Assembly (NCBI RefSeq): GCF_030291135.1
Contig: NZ_CP127409.1
Coordinates: forward strand, 2,976,001 to 3,040,000
Length of the DNA: 64,000 nt
Origin: Rhodanobacter thiooxydans
GTDB lineage: Bacteria; Pseudomonadota; Gammaproteobacteria; Xanthomonadales; Rhodanobacteraceae
Direction: 5' to 3'
This document shows, in pieces, positions 1-8,058 of this stretch. Position 1 is the stretch's first letter; each line of letters begins with the position of its first letter. Made by a program: the position numbers and the translations under genes. The notes beneath the pieces were generated by a model. It was not told the DNA's origin, did no database searches, and was given only the letters and a program-made list of their open reading frames with translations.

Positions 1-2526
1 GAAGGACCACGATCCGCTGGCGCGCAGCATGGTGTCGTTATGGGTATCGCGGCTGTTGCCGGCGGGCGTCTGCTGCTCGATCGACAACACCACGTTCTGC
101 GTGACCAGCGGCTTCCAGTGCAGTCCCACGCCGAGCATCGGCGAATGCACCGGCCACACCGAGCCGGCGGCACCGCTGCCGGCGAAGACGCGCGCGTAGG
201 CCGCCAGCGTATTGGCGTCGCCGCCGGTGAGATGCGGGTCGAAGCGGTATTGCGCCTCGAGCTGCAGGTAGCTGCGATAGGAGACGCCCGGCGCCGCCGC
301 GTTGGCCGCCGAGGACACGGTGTCGCCCAGGGTCATGTCCGCGTTGAAGCGCCACTTGCGGCCGAGATCCTCGTGCAGGCGACGCAGGCTGTAGCGCTGC
401 TGCTCCGTGTCTTCCCGCTCCGTGCCGTCGTTCCCGGCGTCGCTGGCAACGGCGGGACCGAGCTGGTCGATCGCCTGCGCCGCATAGGCCTGCGCCTGTG
501 CGTCGTCGCCCAGCTGCTGGTGCACGTACAGCAACTGCCGGGTCAATCCGGGATCGTCGGGATTGGCCCGGTGCGCGCGCTCGAACTGCGCCACCGCTTC
601 GTCCGGCGCACCCGCCTGCAGATAGGCGTAGCCCAACGAGGCGGCCAGCCGGCTGTCGTCGGGTGCCAGCGCACTGGCACGTTGCAGCGAAAGCAGCGCC
701 TGCTGCGCTTCGCCCGCCCGGCTTTGCAGGGCCGCCAGGCGCGCGTAGTAACGCGGATCGGCGTGCATCGCCACGGCATTTTCCAGATCGACCCGGGCCA
801 GCGCCGGGTCGCCCGGCTCGTCGGCCTGCGCGCGCAGCCACCAGTAGTTGTGGTCCTGCCGGCCGCCCCGCACCGCATACGTATCCAGCCAGGAACGCGC
901 GACGGCCGGGTCGTCGACGGTGAGCGCGGTGGTCGCGGCGGCCAGCAGATCGGCCGGCTGCATGTGCGCCGCCGGCACCGAACGCCAGGCTTGCAGGGCC
1001 GTGGCATAGTCCTGCGCGCTGTAGGCCTGATAAGCCAGCGCGCGGGTGATGTCGCTGCCTGGCTGGCGTCGGCGGGCCTCGGCGTAGGCGTACTCGGCGA
1101 GGCCGGGCCGGTCGTTGCCGTAGCAATCGCCGAGTTGCCGCCACAGTCCGGCCGGGTAGTCCGGCGAGAGGTCGGCCATCACCTGGCGGATCCCGTCGCA
1201 GTCGCGCAGGGCGCCCAGGATCGGAACCTGCGCCACGCGCAGCGGCACGCTTTCCAGCGGCTGCCGCAGGCGCGTGCGATCGTCCGGCGAAAACAGCGTC
1301 GGCTGCTCGCTGGCCAGCACCGCCAGGCGGGACAGCAGAGCTGCCCGGCCCGGATTACCGGCGAACGGATATGCACCCAGCAACAAATGCTTCGCCTCGC
1401 CGCGTGCACCGGCCTCGATCAGGCGATAGCTGAGCGGATCGAGCAGGCGGTAGCCCTCCGGCTGCGCGATCAGTGCTTCGGCCTGTTGCCCGGCCTCGGC
1501 ATGGCGGCCTTGCTGCAGAGCCAGGCTGAAACGCTCTTCGTGGAGGCTTCCGCCGGGCAATCGCGACAGCATGCGTTGCGCCGTCGTGCTGTCGCCGCGC
1601 GCCATCGCCAGCGGCACCGAAAGCCGCGCCTGCAGCACCGCGTTGGCGGGGTGGCGCGTGGCATAGCGAAACAGCAACCCCGGCCGGTCTCGCGCCACCG
1701 ACGCGAGCAGGTCCAGCCACTGTCGCTCATCCTTTTCGCTGGTGAATGCGGGCTGGCGGGCGGCCATGTAGGCGGCCAGCCGCTTGCGGTCGCCGCGCTG
1801 GTCGAGGGCCGCGGCCATGGCCAGATCCTGCGCCGGCGCATCCAGCCCGCCGCGCGCTTGCAGCTGGCGCGCCGCATCCAGCTCGCCGAGCTGAAGCAGC
1901 AGGTTGAACCACTGGCCGCGCTCGTCGGCACTGAGCTTGTCGCTCGTCTCGAGTTCGGCCAGCTGCGCGACAGCGCGCTGACGATCACCGAGGTAGATCG
2001 CGCGCTGCACCAGTGCATGGCGCAAGGCGCGGCCTTCGGGGCTGCGCGCGAAATCCCGGGCATCGAGCTCCGCCTGCGCCCTGGCAAGATCGCCCACCTG
2101 CAGGTCGTCGAAGCCACGCTGGGCGCGGCATGTCGGCCGGTTGTCGCGAGCGCAGTCGACCGCCGCTGCCGTGGCAACAGGTGCGGCGACACGCAGCCGC
2201 GGGTCATCCGGCGTATAGCGGCGTTGTTCGTCCAGCACCTGGCTCGCCTGCACCGCATGACCGAAATGCCGGTAGGCCCCGGCCAGGTCCAGTGCCGTGT
2301 CGATATCCTGCGGCGCCAGCGTCCGCGCACGCTCGAACTCCGCCACCGCGGTGCGCTCGTCGCCGCTACGCATGGCCGCGTAGCCGGCCTGTCGATGCGG
2401 GTACACCAGGAACTGCCGGTAGCGGCTGCCGCCGGCGGCCGGCTCCTGTCCCGCCGCGTGGAGTGGCCACGCCGGCGCCAGCGCGAACAGCGCCAGCGCG
2501 CAGTGGATGGGCCATGGCCGTTTCAT
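1..2526 (-). CDS. nfrA: NfrA-like outer-membrane polysaccharide export/phage N4 adsorption protein A (C-terminus outside window)
   Basis: 842 codons are visible; the C-terminus lies beyond the left edge. The protein starts MKRPWPIHCALALFALAPAW, a Sec signal peptide, followed by several hundred residues of TPR-like helical repeats (for example AALQSRAGEAQQALLSLQRA). From about residue 710 it enters the NfrA C-terminal region (RRLHEDLGRKWRFNADMTLG), which reads as the start of an outer-membrane beta-barrel. In E. coli NfrA is the outer-membrane partner of the synthase NfrB and is needed for phage N4 adsorption. The start ATG overlaps the nfrB stop as ATGA, so the two are translationally coupled. 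The order wecB-nfrB-nfrA suggests synthesis followed by export of an amino-sugar polymer. Assignment rests on domain order plus the NfrB neighbour. Confidence 0.85.
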   Translation of the reverse strand, partial: MKRPWPIHCALALFALAPAWPLHAAGQEPAAGGSRYRQFLVYPHRQAGYAAMRSGDERTAVAEFERARTLAPQDIDTALDLAGAYRHFGHAVQASQVLDEQRRYTPDDPRLRVAAPVATAAAVDCARDNRPTCRAQRGFDDLQVGDLARAQAELDARDFARSPEGRALRHALVQRAIYLGDRQRAVAQLAELETSDKLSADERGQWFNLLLQLGELDAARQLQARGGLDAPAQDLAMAAALDQRGDRKRLAAYMAARQPAFTSEKDERQWLDLLASVARDRPGLLFRYATRHPANAVLQARLSVPLAMARGDSTTAQRMLSRLPGGSLHEERFSLALQQGRHAEAGQQAEALIAQPEGYRLLDPLSYRLIEAGARGEAKHLLLGAYPFAGNPGRAALLSRLAVLASEQPTLFSPDDRTRLRQPLESVPLRVAQVPILGALRDCDGIRQVMADLSPDYPAGLWRQLGDCYGNDRPGLAEYAYAEARRRQPGSDITRALAYQAYSAQDYATALQAWRSVPAAHMQPADLLAAATTALTVDDPAVARSWLDTYAVRGGRQDHNYWWLRAQADEPGDPALARVDLENAVAMHADPRYYARLAALQSRAGEAQQALLSLQRASALAPDDSRLAASLGYAYLQAGAPDEAVAQFERAHRANPDDPGLTRQLLYVHQQLGDDAQAQAYAAQAIDQLGPAVASDAGNDGTEREDTEQQRYSLRRLHEDLGRKWRFNADMTLGDTVSSAANAAAPGVSYRSYLQLEAQYRFDPHLTGGDANTLAAYARVFAGSGAAGSVWPVHSPMLGVGLHWKPLVTQNVVLSIEQQTPAGNSRDTHNDTMLRASGSWSF

Positions 2527-4760
2527 GCTGCCTCCTCCGCTGGCGCCAGCGAGCGCACCGGCATGGCGGCCTCCAGGTCGAGCAGCAGGTCGATGTCCGG
2601 CTGCAATGTCGCCTGGAGGGCCAGCATGCGATCCAGCGTTTCCTGATTGATCACGCCCTGTTCGACCAGGAACTTCCCCAGCGGCTGCGGGCTGCGCGCG
2701 TGGCTGAGCAGCAGCGACCTGAACGCCACCGCATCCAGGTGCCCCTGTGCCACCAGGATTTCGCCCAGCATGACCTGGCGCGACACGTAGCTGTCCCATA
2801 ACGATGTCACGCGGTCGCCACGGATCCGCCCGCTGCGCGTCGCGTCGTCGAGCAGACGGTACGGGTCGCGCTCGTGGCGGCACGCGTGCGCGTACCGGCA
2901 ACGCAGCCCGACCGCGACCTGGCCCTTGTGCGCAATCACGTAACGCACCGGCCGGTCGAGCTGGCGTGCGATCGCCGCCAGCGACACCGGGTCGATGTAG
3001 GACTCGCTGGCGAGAACCAGCGTGCGGCCTTCGTGGCGCAACGGCAACACGGCGTAGTGCAATGCCAGGCACGCTGGCAGCACATCCAGCAATGCGCGCG
3101 ACAACCCGGCGAAGTCCACCGATTCGCAACCGACGCCAATCTGCTCGGCGATCGAGCAGGCCAGTTGTGCGGCGGTGATCCGGGATTCGTGGACCATCGA
3201 GCTGCCCAGTTGCAGGCCGTCGATGCGGTGCAGTTCCGCCTCGCGCAATTCCTGCGCCGAGACCACGCCGTTCGCGACCAGTATCTCGCCGAGCGAGCGT
3301 TTGGCACGGTTCTCGCCGCCGATGCTGGGGAAGTCGTGGGTGGTCTTGTCCCAGGCCACGCGCCGCGGGTCGCCACACTTGATGATCTGCCGGATCGCGC
3401 GCCAGTTGGCCAGGAAATTGATCAGGTTGCCCCACAGCAGTCGCGGTATCGACAACAGCCCCTGCTTCACGCCGTAATAGCCGGACACGAAGATGATCCG
3501 CTGCAGCATGCGGTTGCCCATCAACGCGATGTTCGCCGTGAGAACGAGATCGAACCACGGCTGCCCCTCGAAGATCGACACGAAGCGCGGCGCCTCGGTC
3601 CACACCTGCTGCAGCAGCCAGAGCATGACCAGCTGCAGCAGGATCAGCATCGCGGCGAAACTGACGAAGTTGCTGATCGCGCCCTTGCGGTCGCGCCACA
3701 GGAAATAATTGAGCACCCAGCCGTGCCCCCAGCCGTGGGTGCGGTAGCCCTGGTAGACGATGCCGATGATCCAGCGCGACTTCTGCCGCACCGCCGTCGC
3801 CAGGCGGTCGGGAAAATATTCGCGCACGCAGATCACGTTGGACTCGCGCCAGCTCTGGCCAAGAAGGCTCTCGCCGGCGTCATGCCGCTGGTAGCGCAGC
3901 ACCGGGAAGCGCACGAAGATCTCCTCCATGCCCTTGGCCTTCAGGCGCAGGCCGATGTCGTAATCCTCGGTCAGGCTCTGCACGTCGAACGCGATGCCAT
4001 TGCCCGCCTCGATCAGCGTGAGCACGGCGCGCCGACTGAAGCAGGTGCCGACGCCGGCGCTGGGCACCTGCCCGGCCAGCGCCTCGCGCATGGGCACGTC
4101 CTTGCCGTGCAGCTCGGCGAACTCGTCCAGGTAATGCAGGCTGGTGAAGTTGTTCCACTGCCGCGCAAACGGGTAGACCGGCAGCTGGATCAGGTCCTTG
4201 CGGTCGACCAGGTAGTTGAACAGCCGCAGCTCGTGCGCGCACACGACGTCCTCGGCATCGTGCAGGATGAAGCCCTCGAACGTCATGCGGGCGCGCCGTT
4301 CGAACTGCAGGATGGCGTCCAGCACGTTGTTGAGGCAGTCGGCCTTGCTGGTCGGCCCCGGCCGCGCGCACACCACCTTGTGCACGTTGGGAAAGCGCGC
4401 ACACACCTCGTCGACATCGCGCTGGGTATCGGGATCGTTCGGATAGGTGCCGACGAAGATGTGGTAGTTCTCGTAGTCCAGCGTGGTCGCCGCCAGCTCG
4501 GCCATGTGGCCGATCACGCCGGTTTCATTCCAGGCCGGCACCATGATCGCCAGCGGTTTTTCCGCCGGACGGTACAGCTCGTGATAGTTGGTGTGCTCGT
4601 GCCGCTGGTAGACCACCATTGACTTCCACAACCGACGCAGCCAGTAGGCGATGTCGATGAACAGGTCGTCCAGGCCGCTGACCAGCATCAGCAGGGCGAT
4701 CGCGATGACGGCCACGCTCAGGCCGTAGAGATAGGTCGAGAATGCATCCAGCCACCACAT
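2523..4760 (-). CDS. nfrB: NfrB-like c-di-GMP-responsive GT2 glycosyltransferase (phage N4 adsorption protein B)
   Basis: 745 aa inner-membrane processive glycosyltransferase. An N-terminal membrane helix (about 10-30) is followed by a GT2 domain with IMVPAWNETGVIG, an acidic HDAEDVV motif near residue 168, TEDYD near 265 and QKSRW near 326, the D,D,TED,QxxRW pattern of cellulose-synthase-like enzymes. Further membrane segments lie about 350-450. The C-terminal 250 residues contain three MshEN-like motifs: RSLGEILVANGVVSAQEL (about 487), VMLGEILVAQGHLDAVAF (about 662) and PLGKFLVEQGVINQETL (about 692). MshEN domains bind c-di-GMP, and E. coli NfrB is controlled this way. GGAGG lies six to seven bases before the ATG. 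It follows wecB by 15 bp and overlaps nfrA by 4 bp. Confidence 0.93.
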   Translation of the reverse strand: MWWLDAFSTYLYGLSVAVIAIALLMLVSGLDDLFIDIAYWLRRLWKSMVVYQRHEHTNYHELYRPAEKPLAIMVPAWNETGVIGHMAELAATTLDYENYHIFVGTYPNDPDTQRDVDEVCARFPNVHKVVCARPGPTSKADCLNNVLDAILQFERRARMTFEGFILHDAEDVVCAHELRLFNYLVDRKDLIQLPVYPFARQWNNFTSLHYLDEFAELHGKDVPMREALAGQVPSAGVGTCFSRRAVLTLIEAGNGIAFDVQSLTEDYDIGLRLKAKGMEEIFVRFPVLRYQRHDAGESLLGQSWRESNVICVREYFPDRLATAVRQKSRWIIGIVYQGYRTHGWGHGWVLNYFLWRDRKGAISNFVSFAAMLILLQLVMLWLLQQVWTEAPRFVSIFEGQPWFDLVLTANIALMGNRMLQRIIFVSGYYGVKQGLLSIPRLLWGNLINFLANWRAIRQIIKCGDPRRVAWDKTTHDFPSIGGENRAKRSLGEILVANGVVSAQELREAELHRIDGLQLGSSMVHESRITAAQLACSIAEQIGVGCESVDFAGLSRALLDVLPACLALHYAVLPLRHEGRTLVLASESYIDPVSLAAIARQLDRPVRYVIAHKGQVAVGLRCRYAHACRHERDPYRLLDDATRSGRIRGDRVTSLWDSYVSRQVMLGEILVAQGHLDAVAFRSLLLSHARSPQPLGKFLVEQGVINQETLDRMLALQATLQPDIDLLLDLEAAMPVRSLAPAEEAA

Positions 4761-4775
4761 GCCGCACCTCCATTG

Positions 4776-5888
4776 CTAGACCGCGGTGCGCAGGTGTTCG
4801 CCGCACGCCAGCGCGTTCTGCAGCACATCGACGATCCGGATGCTGGCCTGGCCATCACCGAATGGATTGCCTGCGCGCGCCATCGACTGGTACGCGGCCG
4901 GGTCGGACCAAAGCGCCTCGATCTGCCTCGTGATGGACTCGCGCTTTGTACCGGCCAGCCGGGCACAGCCAGTCTCGACCGCTTCCGGCCGCTCGGTTTC
5001 GGTACGCAGCACCAGCAGCGGCACGCCGAAGGTGGGCGCCTCTTCCTGCAGGCCGCCGGAGTCGGTCAGCACCAGCCAGGAGTCGACCAGCGCCTGCTGC
5101 ATGTCCAGGTAGTCGAACGGCAGGCTCAGGTGCACGTTGGCCAGCCCGCCGAGGATGGCGTGCACGGGCTGGCCCACCACCGGGTTGAGGTGCACCGGGA
5201 ACAGCACCTGCAGCTCCGGGTGGCGATTCGCGACATCGGCGATCGCATGGCAGATCTCGCGCAGGTCGCTGCCCCAGTTCTCGCGGCGATGGGCGGTGAC
5301 CAGCAGGTGGCCGCGCCCCTCCACCCGGCGCTGTATCCGGTGGTGCCGCACCACCCAGTGCTGCGCGTCGATCACGGTATTGCCGGTGACGAAGACATGC
5401 TCGTGCGGGATCGCCTCTGCGCGCAGCGCCTGCGCCGCACGCTCGGTCGGTGCGAAATGGAACCGGGTGATCCGGCTGACCATCTGGCGCAGGCCTTCCT
5501 CGGGGAACGGCCGCTCCAGGTCATAGGTGCGCAGGCCCGCCTCGACGTGCGCGACCGGAACGCGGTGGTGGAAGCCGCACAGCGCGCCGAGGAAGGTGCT
5601 CTCGGTATCGCCCTGCACCACCACCAGCGACCAGGACCCGTCCGACATCACGCTGTCGAGCAGGCCGCGGCAGCGCACGCTGAACTCGTGCAGCCCGTCG
5701 CCGACACGATCGAGCGAAATGTCGGGAACGATGCCGAAGCAGGCAAGCATCTGACGCGCCATCTCGTCGTGCTGCCCGGTATGCAACCAGTGCGGCCGCA
5801 CCCAGTCGCTGGCGCGCATGCAGTGATACAGCGGTGCCAGCTTGATGATCTCCGGGCGTGTGCCACAGACAATCAGTGCATCCTGCAT
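4776..5888 (-). CDS. wecB: UDP-N-acetylglucosamine 2-epimerase (non-hydrolysing)
   Basis: 370 aa, the normal length for WecB. It interconverts UDP-GlcNAc and UDP-ManNAc in the cytoplasm. Signature stretches are VCGTRPEIIKLAPL at the N-terminus, GDTESTFLGAL, HVEAGLRTYDLERPFPEE, VTAHRRENWG and LTDSGGLQEEAPTFGVP with the following RTETERPE. GGGGGAGA lies seven bases before the ATG. It is the first gene of a three-gene operon with nfrB (15 bp gap) and nfrA (4 bp overlap), so its UDP-ManNAc product is the likely donor or precursor for NfrB. This matches E. coli work in which NfrB/NfrA activity needs WecB, although there wecB sits in a different operon. Symbol chosen by family; a second wecB elsewhere in the genome is possible. 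Confidence 0.95.
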   Translation of the reverse strand: MQDALIVCGTRPEIIKLAPLYHCMRASDWVRPHWLHTGQHDEMARQMLACFGIVPDISLDRVGDGLHEFSVRCRGLLDSVMSDGSWSLVVVQGDTESTFLGALCGFHHRVPVAHVEAGLRTYDLERPFPEEGLRQMVSRITRFHFAPTERAAQALRAEAIPHEHVFVTGNTVIDAQHWVVRHHRIQRRVEGRGHLLVTAHRRENWGSDLREICHAIADVANRHPELQVLFPVHLNPVVGQPVHAILGGLANVHLSLPFDYLDMQQALVDSWLVLTDSGGLQEEAPTFGVPLLVLRTETERPEAVETGCARLAGTKRESITRQIEALWSDPAAYQSMARAGNPFGDGQASIRIVDVLQNALACGEHLRTAV

Positions 5889-6070
5889 GTGCTTTCTCCC
5901 CCACAGGACGGCAACACGGTCCTGCTACGCGGGCATCCTGCCCATGTCCCCACTATCGCGAAAAGCCGACCGCAAGCGCCTCAATGGGCGGGGGGAGTGC
6001 CTGCGATCGAGCCCGTATCGGCGGTCACGAGTACCGCCTTGTTGTTCAATATTGCGAACTGCAAGTTAAA

Positions 6071-6090
6071 TCAACGAAAATTTTCGATGA
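6071..6090. promoter_or_regulatory. Near-perfect 20-bp palindrome in the wecB/DUF2334 divergent region (operator candidate)
   Basis: The sequence around CGAAAATTTTCG is a perfect 12-bp palindrome at 6075-6086. Symmetry continues through TCA at 6071-6073 and TGA at 6088-6090 with a single mismatched pair (6074/6087), giving 9 of 10 matching half-site positions. It lies in an AT-rich patch between the divergent wecB operon (start 5888) and the DUF2334 gene (start 6295), where a shared regulator would bind. Which protein binds is unknown; the binding role is inferred from symmetry and position. Confidence 0.45.
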
Positions 6091-6108
6091 ATTCTCCTTG
6101 TTGTGTCC

Positions 6109-6132
6109 TTGACATGATGTGTGATTTATAAT
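6109..6132 (+). promoter_or_regulatory. Possible promoter of the DUF2334 gene
   Basis: A consensus -10 hexamer TATAAT lies at 6127-6132 in an AT-rich stretch. A consensus TTGACA lies at 6109-6114, but the spacer is only 12 bp, too short for a normal sigma-70 pair. The -10 may therefore work with a weaker -35 further upstream or with an activator. A transcript starting here would have a leader of about 155 nt. Confidence 0.35.
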
Positions 6133-6138
6133 AGCCAA

Positions 6139-6207
6139 GCCAGCCAAGCTGGCGATCGGCTGCAAGCAAGCTTGCCAACGGAGGGCAAGGCGTCCCTTTC
6201 ACGGGAC
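6139..6207 (+). other. Structured 5' leader with three stem-loops upstream of the DUF2334 gene
   Basis: Three simple hairpins can be drawn in the putative leader: GCCAGC/GCTGGC with a CAA loop (6139-6153), CTTGCC/GGCAAG with a 7-nt loop (6171-6189), and GTCCC/GGGAC with a 6-nt loop (6192-6207). No known riboswitch consensus is recognisable; in particular the GEMM c-di-GMP aptamer core is absent. Short stems also occur by chance in GC-rich DNA, so function is uncertain. Confidence 0.35.
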
Positions 6208-6294
6208 AGGGGCCTGGGCATTCGGGATGTGTATTGCACTTCCAGCAGCGCGCTGACTGCGCGCCTGCCCAACCACCGCGTGAGAGGAACTCCC

Positions 6295-8058
6295 ATGACC
6301 AAGTCAACGCTTGTCGGGCTGTCGACTTTCAAGTCCGTCATCATCAGTGCGGCACTGCTGTTCGCTGCGGCATCCAGTCCGATGACCGTCGCCACGCCGG
6401 CGACGGCCGTGCGCACCACCGGCGACCGCATGCTTCCCGCGCCACCGCCCCCCCCGCGCGCGGCGCTGCCGGAGAAGAAGTCGACCGTCGTCTCCCCGAC
6501 GACGACCCGTCTGCTGGCACCGGCACTGCTGCAGGCGGTGAACCAGTACGCCGGCGCGCCCGGCGCGAACCCGAACCAGAACACGCTGGTGTTGTACGAC
6601 AGCTCCGGCCAGTGGGGCTGGCTGGGTGAAGCCTACGGCGTGATGGCCGGAAACCTGGTCACCCACGGCAGCAAGTACACCCTGCATCCGGCGGCGGCTT
6701 ACGTCGCGGGCGAGCTCGGCGGCTATACCGGCCTGGTCTACGTCGGCTCGACCTACGACGAGCCGCTGCCGACCGCATTGCTGGACGACGTGCTGGCGAC
6801 CAGCAAACCGGTGCTGTGGATGAACGACAACATCTGGCAACTGGCCGCCCGTGCAAGCAACTTCGCCGGGCAGTACGGCTTCACGCCGATGTTCTTCGAC
6901 TTCAGCAATGCGCTGGCGGTGACCTACAAGGGGGTCGCGCTGCAGCGCAATGCGCTGGCGGTGCCCACTGGCCTGCTGCAGACGGCGATCAACGACCCCA
7001 CCAGGGCGCAGGTACTCGCCACGGCCAGCAACGACGTCGGCGGCACCATCAACTGGGCCACCCGCGGCGCCAACCTGACCTACATTGGCGAGATTCCCTT
7101 CAGCTACACGGGGCCGAACGACCGCTACCTCGCGGCCGTCGACCTGATCGGCAAGGTGTCCAACCCGTCCATGCCGTCGCGCAAGCGCGCGCTGGTGCGC
7201 ATCGAGGACGTCAGCGCGGACGCCGACCCGACCGAATTGCGCGCGATCGCCGACTATCTGTACAAAAAGCACGTGCCTTTCAGCGTGGCGGTGATCCCGT
7301 TCTACAAGGATCCGAACGGGGTATACAACAACGGCGTGCCGGTCAGCACACACCTCTACCAGGCCAGCGGCGTGGTCCAGGCACTGCGCTACATGCAGTC
7401 GAGGGGCGGCACACTGCTGATGCACGGATATACGCACCAGTACTCGAATGTCGACAATCCCTACAGTGGCGTAACCGCTGACGATTTCGAGTTCTACCGC
7501 GCGCACATCAGCACCAACAACTACGTCATCTACGACACGCCGGTGGCCGAAGACTCCGCACTGTGGGCGCAGGGGCGCATCGCAAGCAGCCAGCAGGAAT
7601 TCGCCAAGGCGGGTTTCACCGTGCCGAACATCTTCGAGCCGCCGCACTACGCGGCCTCGGCGATCGACTACCAGGTATTCCAGCCCGCGTTCACCGCACG
7701 CTACGACCGCGGCCTGTATGCGGCCGGCTGGTGCCCGAACGGGGCCTGCGGAACCGGCACCCCGGACTACACCCGGATCTACGGCGAGTTCTATCCCTAC
7801 CTGGTGCGCGACATCTACGGCTCGGTGGTGATCCCGGAGCAGCTCGGCAACGTCGAACTGACCGAGTTCAACCACAACCCGCCGCGCTACCCGGCCGACA
7901 TCCTCTACAGCGCCAACTGCAACACCGTGATCCAGGATGGCGTGCAGAGCTTCTTCTTCCACCCGTACCTGAGCATCAGCTACCTGAAGCAGATCGTCGA
8001 AGGCCTACAGGCGATGGGCTACACCTTCGTGCCCGCGAACACCGTCAAGCAGGGCTGA
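6295..8058 (+). CDS. Secreted DUF2334 polysaccharide-deacetylase-like protein
   Basis: 587 aa from the ATG at 6295, which has AGAGGAAC seven bases upstream; the frame is open further upstream but without a ribosome site. The N-terminus is a signal peptide (STFKSVIISAALLFAAASS) followed by a proline-rich linker. The C-terminal half, about 295-587, carries the DUF2334 signature related to NodB deacetylases: RIEDVSADADP (about 301), HGYTH (about 377-381, candidate metal ligands), EPPHYAAS (about 448) and FFFHPYLS (about 551). The middle region (95-290) looks like a Rossmann-type domain of unknown role. Divergent from wecB-nfrB-nfrA, it probably modifies the polymer made there, perhaps by removing N-acetyl groups outside the cytoplasm. 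The activity is inferred, not shown. Confidence 0.85.
   Translation: MTKSTLVGLSTFKSVIISAALLFAAASSPMTVATPATAVRTTGDRMLPAPPPPPRAALPEKKSTVVSPTTTRLLAPALLQAVNQYAGAPGANPNQNTLVLYDSSGQWGWLGEAYGVMAGNLVTHGSKYTLHPAAAYVAGELGGYTGLVYVGSTYDEPLPTALLDDVLATSKPVLWMNDNIWQLAARASNFAGQYGFTPMFFDFSNALAVTYKGVALQRNALAVPTGLLQTAINDPTRAQVLATASNDVGGTINWATRGANLTYIGEIPFSYTGPNDRYLAAVDLIGKVSNPSMPSRKRALVRIEDVSADADPTELRAIADYLYKKHVPFSVAVIPFYKDPNGVYNNGVPVSTHLYQASGVVQALRYMQSRGGTLLMHGYTHQYSNVDNPYSGVTADDFEFYRAHISTNNYVIYDTPVAEDSALWAQGRIASSQQEFAKAGFTVPNIFEPPHYAASAIDYQVFQPAFTARYDRGLYAAGWCPNGACGTGTPDYTRIYGEFYPYLVRDIYGSVVIPEQLGNVELTEFNHNPPRYPADILYSANCNTVIQDGVQSFFFHPYLSISYLKQIVEGLQAMGYTFVPANTVKQG

Follow-up and report, generated by a model that had tools for sequence, protein, structure and literature searches.

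The window analysed here is a stretch of 64,000 nucleotides of DNA from the soil bacterium Rhodanobacter thiooxydans (G000:C1:2976001-3040000), part of a 3.5-Mb genome in a single contig. Among the genomes of the named collection, Rhodanobacter sp. Soil772 is the closest to it (NfrB 89% identity). At its left end lies a unit of six genes, consisting of a wecB-nfrB-nfrA-ybcH operon, a divergent DUF2334 gene and a convergent gene for a GH-A-like secreted protein. The gene nfrA is cut by the window start and runs 386 bases further left (full protein 970 aa); the remainder of the unit was read from L083, a stretch that covers the left of the window (window coordinate = L083 position - 14000). The features are as follows.

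6295..8058, + strand: DUF2334 gene, 587 aa, predicted exported NodB-fold polysaccharide deacetylase (PF10096 E=8e-56, AlphaFold model)
7180..8049, + strand: NodB/CE4-like catalytic domain of the DUF2334 protein (homologue alignment)
7204-7209, 7423-7425, 7435-7437 and 7960-7962, + strand: DUF2334 residues E303-D304, H376, H380 and H555, respectively (residue 1 at window position 6298)
5889..6294, no strand: intergenic region separating the divergent wecB and DUF2334 genes (sequence)
4776..5888, - strand: wecB, non-hydrolysing UDP-GlcNAc 2-epimerase (TIGR00236, PDB 1vgv)
2523..4760, - strand: nfrB, GT2 synthase with a C-terminal MshEN c-di-GMP-binding region (GT2 and MshEN domains)
2901..3305, - strand: MshEN region of NfrB, predicted to bind c-di-GMP (PF05157 E=6e-8, alignment to E. 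coli L490/G491)
1..2526, - strand: 5' part of nfrA, TPR and outer-membrane barrel exporter (NfrA_C and TPR domains)
L083:12706-13617 (window -1294 to -383), - strand: ybcH (DUF4434), left of the window
L083:11653-12627, + strand: secreted GH-A-like gene, 324 aa, convergent, left of the window

The spacing of about 15 bp between wecB and nfrB, together with overlaps of 4 bp at both nfrB/nfrA and nfrA/ybcH, indicates that these four genes form an operon. The likely start of the DUF2334 gene is the ATG at 6295, preceded by a GAGAGGAA site, and its stop is at 8058. A promoter scan of the region between it and wecB gave a single weak promoter-like match, which is at most a lead. The block is not a product of chance, since the family E-values reach 1e-117 and the arrangement is repeated in 16 related loci. 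A preliminary description of this DNA had recognised wecB-nfrB-nfrA with a divergent DUF2334 gene, and the TIGR00236, GT2/MshEN, NfrA_C/TPR and PF10096 matches bear this out. Its description of these four genes was right but incomplete, since ybcH/DUF4434 and the GH-A-like gene also belong to the unit.

Aligned over its full length, NfrB shares 62% identity with its E. coli counterpart, and the GT2 motifs DxD, TED and QxxRW are all present. In E. coli, D169, D267 and W330 are required for glycosyl transfer, and L490 and G491 for c-di-GMP binding (PMC8669469). Equivalents of all these residues are kept here, while the position of the second Leu, L537, is occupied by Ile. The score against the NCBIfam equivalog NF008411 was 1132.8 bits, narrowly under the cut-off of 1170; in view of this small shortfall and the full-length identity, we regard NfrB as a diverged orthologue and not as a different kind of protein. 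The genes for NfrA (TPR, NfrA_C) and YbcH are adjacent, as the Nfr (NGR) system requires. WecB scored 392 bits against TIGR00236 (cut-off 210) and matched PDB 1vgv with E=1e-95. The conserved NfrB residues and the WecB match support the proposal of a synthase and exporter putatively gated by c-di-GMP and equipped with their own UDP-GlcNAc 2-epimerase. The 25 GGDEF domains that the genome holds also speak for such a system.

The unit thus resembles the E. coli Nfr/NGR system in its synthase, exporter and periplasmic protein, in the order nfrB-nfrA-ybcH and in the conserved glycosyltransferase and c-di-GMP residues. It differs in that wecB heads the operon and in the added DUF2334 and GH-A-like secreted proteins; the nfr loci of E. 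coli have no DUF2334. An epimerase-led nfr operon is an arrangement already known: wecB is reported to adjoin nfrB wherever the genome has no other WecB gene, and Pseudomonas soli is one example of such linkage (PMC8669469; Junkermeier & Hengge 2021). In three Enterobacteriaceae loci (L020, L036 and L057) nfrB is likewise immediately preceded by a wecB gene; it has 37-41% identity and seems to have arisen separately from the Rhodanobacteraceae type.

A genome search returned WecB as a single hit, so it is the sole copy. Both nucleotide-sugar dehydrogenases of the genome were scored; they resemble UDP-glucose and TviB-type UDP-GlcNAc enzymes, and neither exceeded the cut-off for a UDP-ManNAc dehydrogenase. 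For these two reasons NfrB is the likely, and the simplest, consumer of UDP-ManNAc. We consider it quite unlikely that the polymer is not based on ManNAc, with NfrB taking UDP-GlcNAc or another donor and WecB serving another pathway. This reading draws on the genetic nature of the ManNAc assignment in E. coli and on the literature searched, in which no isolated polymer was found reported for any Nfr system, but it has to contend with the dehydrogenase scores and with a sole epimerase gene that shares the operon of nfrB.

The DUF2334 protein had been proposed to be related to polysaccharide deacetylases. Its AlphaFold model (pLDDT 77, pTM 0.78; confidence higher in the greater part of the catalytic domain, residues 385-413 excepted) matched CE4/NodB deacetylases in the PDB with E-values from 2e-7 to 1e-3, namely 7ax7 (the best, E=2e-7), 3rxz, BA0150, ArnD, PdaC and chitin deacetylases. 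The fold claim rests on this model, since the DUF2334 profile, run against PDB sequences, gave just a weak partial match to a CE4 domain. In an alignment of 22 homologues, D304, H376 and H380, at the metal-ligand positions of CE4 motifs 1 and 2, are invariant, and the invariant triad and the modelled NodB fold together support the predicted relationship. The catalytic-base Asp of motif 1 is Glu303 in all 22 homologues, and we therefore class the protein as NodB-fold and not as CE4. The motif-5 His, H555 in the window protein, is present in 19 of the 22; in the Dyella proteins of L007, L009 and L081 it is replaced by Asp. The N terminus appears signal-like by eye, and two Burkholderiales-type homologues have a lipobox-like stretch; on these grounds the protein is predicted to act outside the cytoplasm.

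Since all homologues have Glu at the base position and three Dyella proteins have lost the motif-5 His, the chemistry or the substrate may differ from that of CE4 enzymes. The same two features, along with fold matches that take in ArnD, which is a deformylase, and a pseudoenzyme of CE4 type, would fit a protein that acts on the Nfr polymer in another way, shaping or escorting the chain as an O-deacetylase, a deformylase-like enzyme or a glycan-binding pseudoenzyme. We regard this as unlikely: the metal triad is fully invariant over distant lineages, unlike in a decaying pseudoenzyme, and the precursor of the polymer is an N-acetylated sugar. The best reading, by analogy to PgaB/PelA and PssB, is that DUF2334 would be an exported de-N-acetylase of the Nfr polymer.

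The preliminary description had named beforehand a lack of conserved linkage in relatives as grounds for rejecting the idea; this check was made, and the idea withstood it. Of 234 Rhodanobacteraceae genomes, 19 encode an NfrB with 70% identity or more, and full-length DUF2334 (E<=1.1e-50) was found in exactly these same 19 and in no other; weaker matches in other Rhodanobacteraceae belong to a different subfamily (E>=3e-30). Within Rhodanobacter itself the nfr-DUF2334 unit is present in just 4 of 45 genomes. A naive Fisher test of the co-occurrence gives p=2e-28, a value that overstates the case, given the relatedness of the genomes and the ability of the genes to travel together.

Recurrence across lineages is better evidence than this test. 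In 8 Burkholderiales-type loci (Comamonadaceae such as Comamonas and Diaphorobacter, and others) DUF2334 is flanked by nfrA and a ybcH-like gene, and in Microbulbifer (L080) it is divergent within the nfr cluster. A class-wide sample of 369 genomes added cases in distant gammaproteobacteria: two copies in the NfrB-like cluster of G436, further ones in those of G396 and G385, and one on the nfrA-ybcH contig of G364. The gene order of such clusters differs between lineages. When the presence of DUF2334 is mapped onto a tree of 81 NfrB proteins, 5 changes are required, 4 of which are forced by supported branches; as several distant members sit on long branches, the separate cases that can be relied on most are Rhodanobacteraceae, Burkholderiales and Microbulbifer. 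Among the loci compared, DUF2334 was absent from those of Enterobacterales (E. coli included), Chitinibacteraceae and Polynucleobacter and from one Lysobacter locus. Being missing from most nfr loci, including that of E. coli, DUF2334 is not needed for the Nfr polymer as such; other DUF2334 subfamilies are found without nfr.

Tandem DUF2334 copies were seen inside nfr clusters at L056:15459-20825 (triplicate, in one of the Burkholderiales-type loci), L006:4581-8295 and L096:8061-12835 (duplicated or triplicated). L092:1305-5277 (G269) holds another DUF2334 gene belonging to the nfr-type subfamily, on a short contig with no nfr genes in view.

Searches of Pfam, NCBIfam and PDB sequences found nothing credible for the secreted GH-A-like protein, which hence falls into no known GH family by sequence. 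Its model is an eight-stranded barrel that matches GH5/GH10 enzymes in the PDB and the C-terminal domain of PgaB. Two glutamates are invariant, E136 (WEIANEINGEW, after strand 4) and E257 (GFGEIG, strand 7), so that the modelled protein would have the clan GH-A layout: a (beta/alpha)8 barrel with the Glu of an NE pair after strand 4 and a Glu at strand 7. The protein occurs in exactly the 19 Rhodanobacteraceae genomes with NfrB and DUF2334, in three of them on a contig other than that of nfr. Homologues (43-45%) were present in two DUF2334-positive Comamonas genomes and absent from three other DUF2334-positive genomes; none was found in the five DUF2334-negative nfr genomes tested. As the protein is kept even where it is not adjacent, function is favoured over mere hitch-hiking.

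YbcH, a DUF4434 protein, was called a putative scaffold in the E. coli work (PMC8669469). In an alignment of 26 homologues (A2), E147, D149 and E247 are invariant, and the protein weakly matched a TIM-barrel glycosidase-like structure, which suggests that YbcH may be more than a scaffold. By way of YbcH, a glycosidase-like barrel may be found in all Nfr systems.

The unit is flanked by a dusA-like gene on one side and a gene for an FNR-type reductase on the other. In 13 Rhodanobacter genomes without nfr these two are divergent neighbours with 0.2-2.2 kb between them; in G000 they are 11.3 kb apart with the six-gene unit in between, and other Rhodanobacter genomes have up to 57 kb of different DNA at this site. 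The unit is therefore a discrete insertion at a variable site. More generally, the interval between the two genes (G000:C1:2973085-2984382 and its relatives) is an insertion hotspot in Rhodanobacter, ranging from 0.2 kb to 57 kb.

Because the unit lies in such a hotspot, part of the co-occurrence of DUF2334 and nfr reflects joint transfer. DUF2334 might then modify another envelope glycan and merely be carried along with nfr in a mobile block, in keeping with a site that is empty or filled otherwise in relatives. We find this very unlikely, as the linkage recurs with differing gene orders in Burkholderiales, Microbulbifer and distant nfr-like clusters, while three genomes keep the GH-like partner on a separate contig. 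That the linkage is a local accident was ruled out by the co-occurrence in 19 of 234 genomes, the recurrent loci, the NfrB tree and the co-retention of the GH-like protein.

The link between DUF2334 and nfr is real and, as far as we could find, undescribed. No host deacetylase tied to nfr was found in the open-licence literature, and the account of nfr clusters in PMC8669469 mentions neither a deacetylase nor a hydrolase, while reporting an alginate-type acetyltransferase cluster in Simplicispira. The preliminary reading is supported in part. The linkage of wecB and nfrB was known, and the Gram-positive Listeria is already known to have a ManNAc polymer that is regulated by c-di-GMP and has a deacetylase of CE4 type (Pss/PssB).

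Taken together, we favour, as probable, a c-di-GMP-gated Nfr exopolysaccharide system with DUF2334 as its dedicated exported polymer de-N-acetylase. For R. thiooxydans we infer substrate, reaction, polymer composition and c-di-GMP control as follows. WecB would convert UDP-GlcNAc to UDP-ManNAc, which NfrB would polymerise across the inner membrane once its MshEN region binds c-di-GMP. The chain would leave by way of NfrA in the outer membrane, and YbcH, as a TIM-barrel glycosidase-like DUF4434 protein, would work in the periplasm. Once exported, the DUF2334 protein, with its predicted NodB fold and Asp-His-His metal site, would strip N-acetyl groups from part of the chain, making the polymer partly cationic and retaining it at the surface, and the secreted GH-A-like enzyme would probably trim or release it.

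The PgaABCD system for PNAG combines a c-di-GMP-dependent synthase, a TPR-barrel exporter, an extracytoplasmic NodB deacetylase and a TIM-barrel glycosidase-like part. The parts of the Nfr-DUF2334 unit, as judged here from genes and models, appear to parallel these. PNAG differs in having another synthase, in PgaB, where deacetylase and hydrolase are one protein and not separate proteins, and in its GlcNAc as opposed to the predicted ManNAc. Listeria Pss is alike in being a c-di-GMP-dependent ManNAc polymer whose surface form needs the CE4-type deacetylase PssB, but it belongs to a Gram-positive and has no outer-membrane exporter and no NfrB/MshEN. Agd3 (CE18) and PelA are likewise NodB-fold exopolysaccharide deacetylases with extra domains, though their substrates are GalNAc polymers; in the PDB sequence search the DUF2334 profile gave no match to their solved structures. 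As a set, synthase, exporter, putative NodB deacetylase and predicted barrel glycosidase would parallel PNAG, Pel and, for a ManNAc polymer, Listeria Pss/PssB.

As a phage receptor under c-di-GMP control, the Nfr polymer is conserved across many bacteria. A shared predicted deacetylase in several lineages, joined in some by a secreted glycosidase, implies that this polymer is probably an N-acetylated amino sugar. The DUF2334 and GH-like proteins offer tailored enzymes for probing it, and DUF2334, a family of unknown function, gains a testable role. The finding also bears on N4-type phages, which carry glycan deacetylase tailspikes: WecB-dependent phages shown to use the Nfr polymer have such tailspikes (PMC8669472). 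A viral structure library yielded a few deacetylase-like proteins of other viruses and no N4-type link. That host deacetylation affects phages with deacetylase tailspikes is speculation on our part. Tentatively, and with more doubt than confidence, we propose that a distinct, repeatedly assembled Nfr lineage produces a cationic poly-mannosamine stripped of some of its N-acetyl groups, possibly the first such polymer in Gram-negatives, by means of a new NodB family with a Glu base, and that the altered acetyl groups could deny the polymer to phages whose deacetylase tailspikes act on it.
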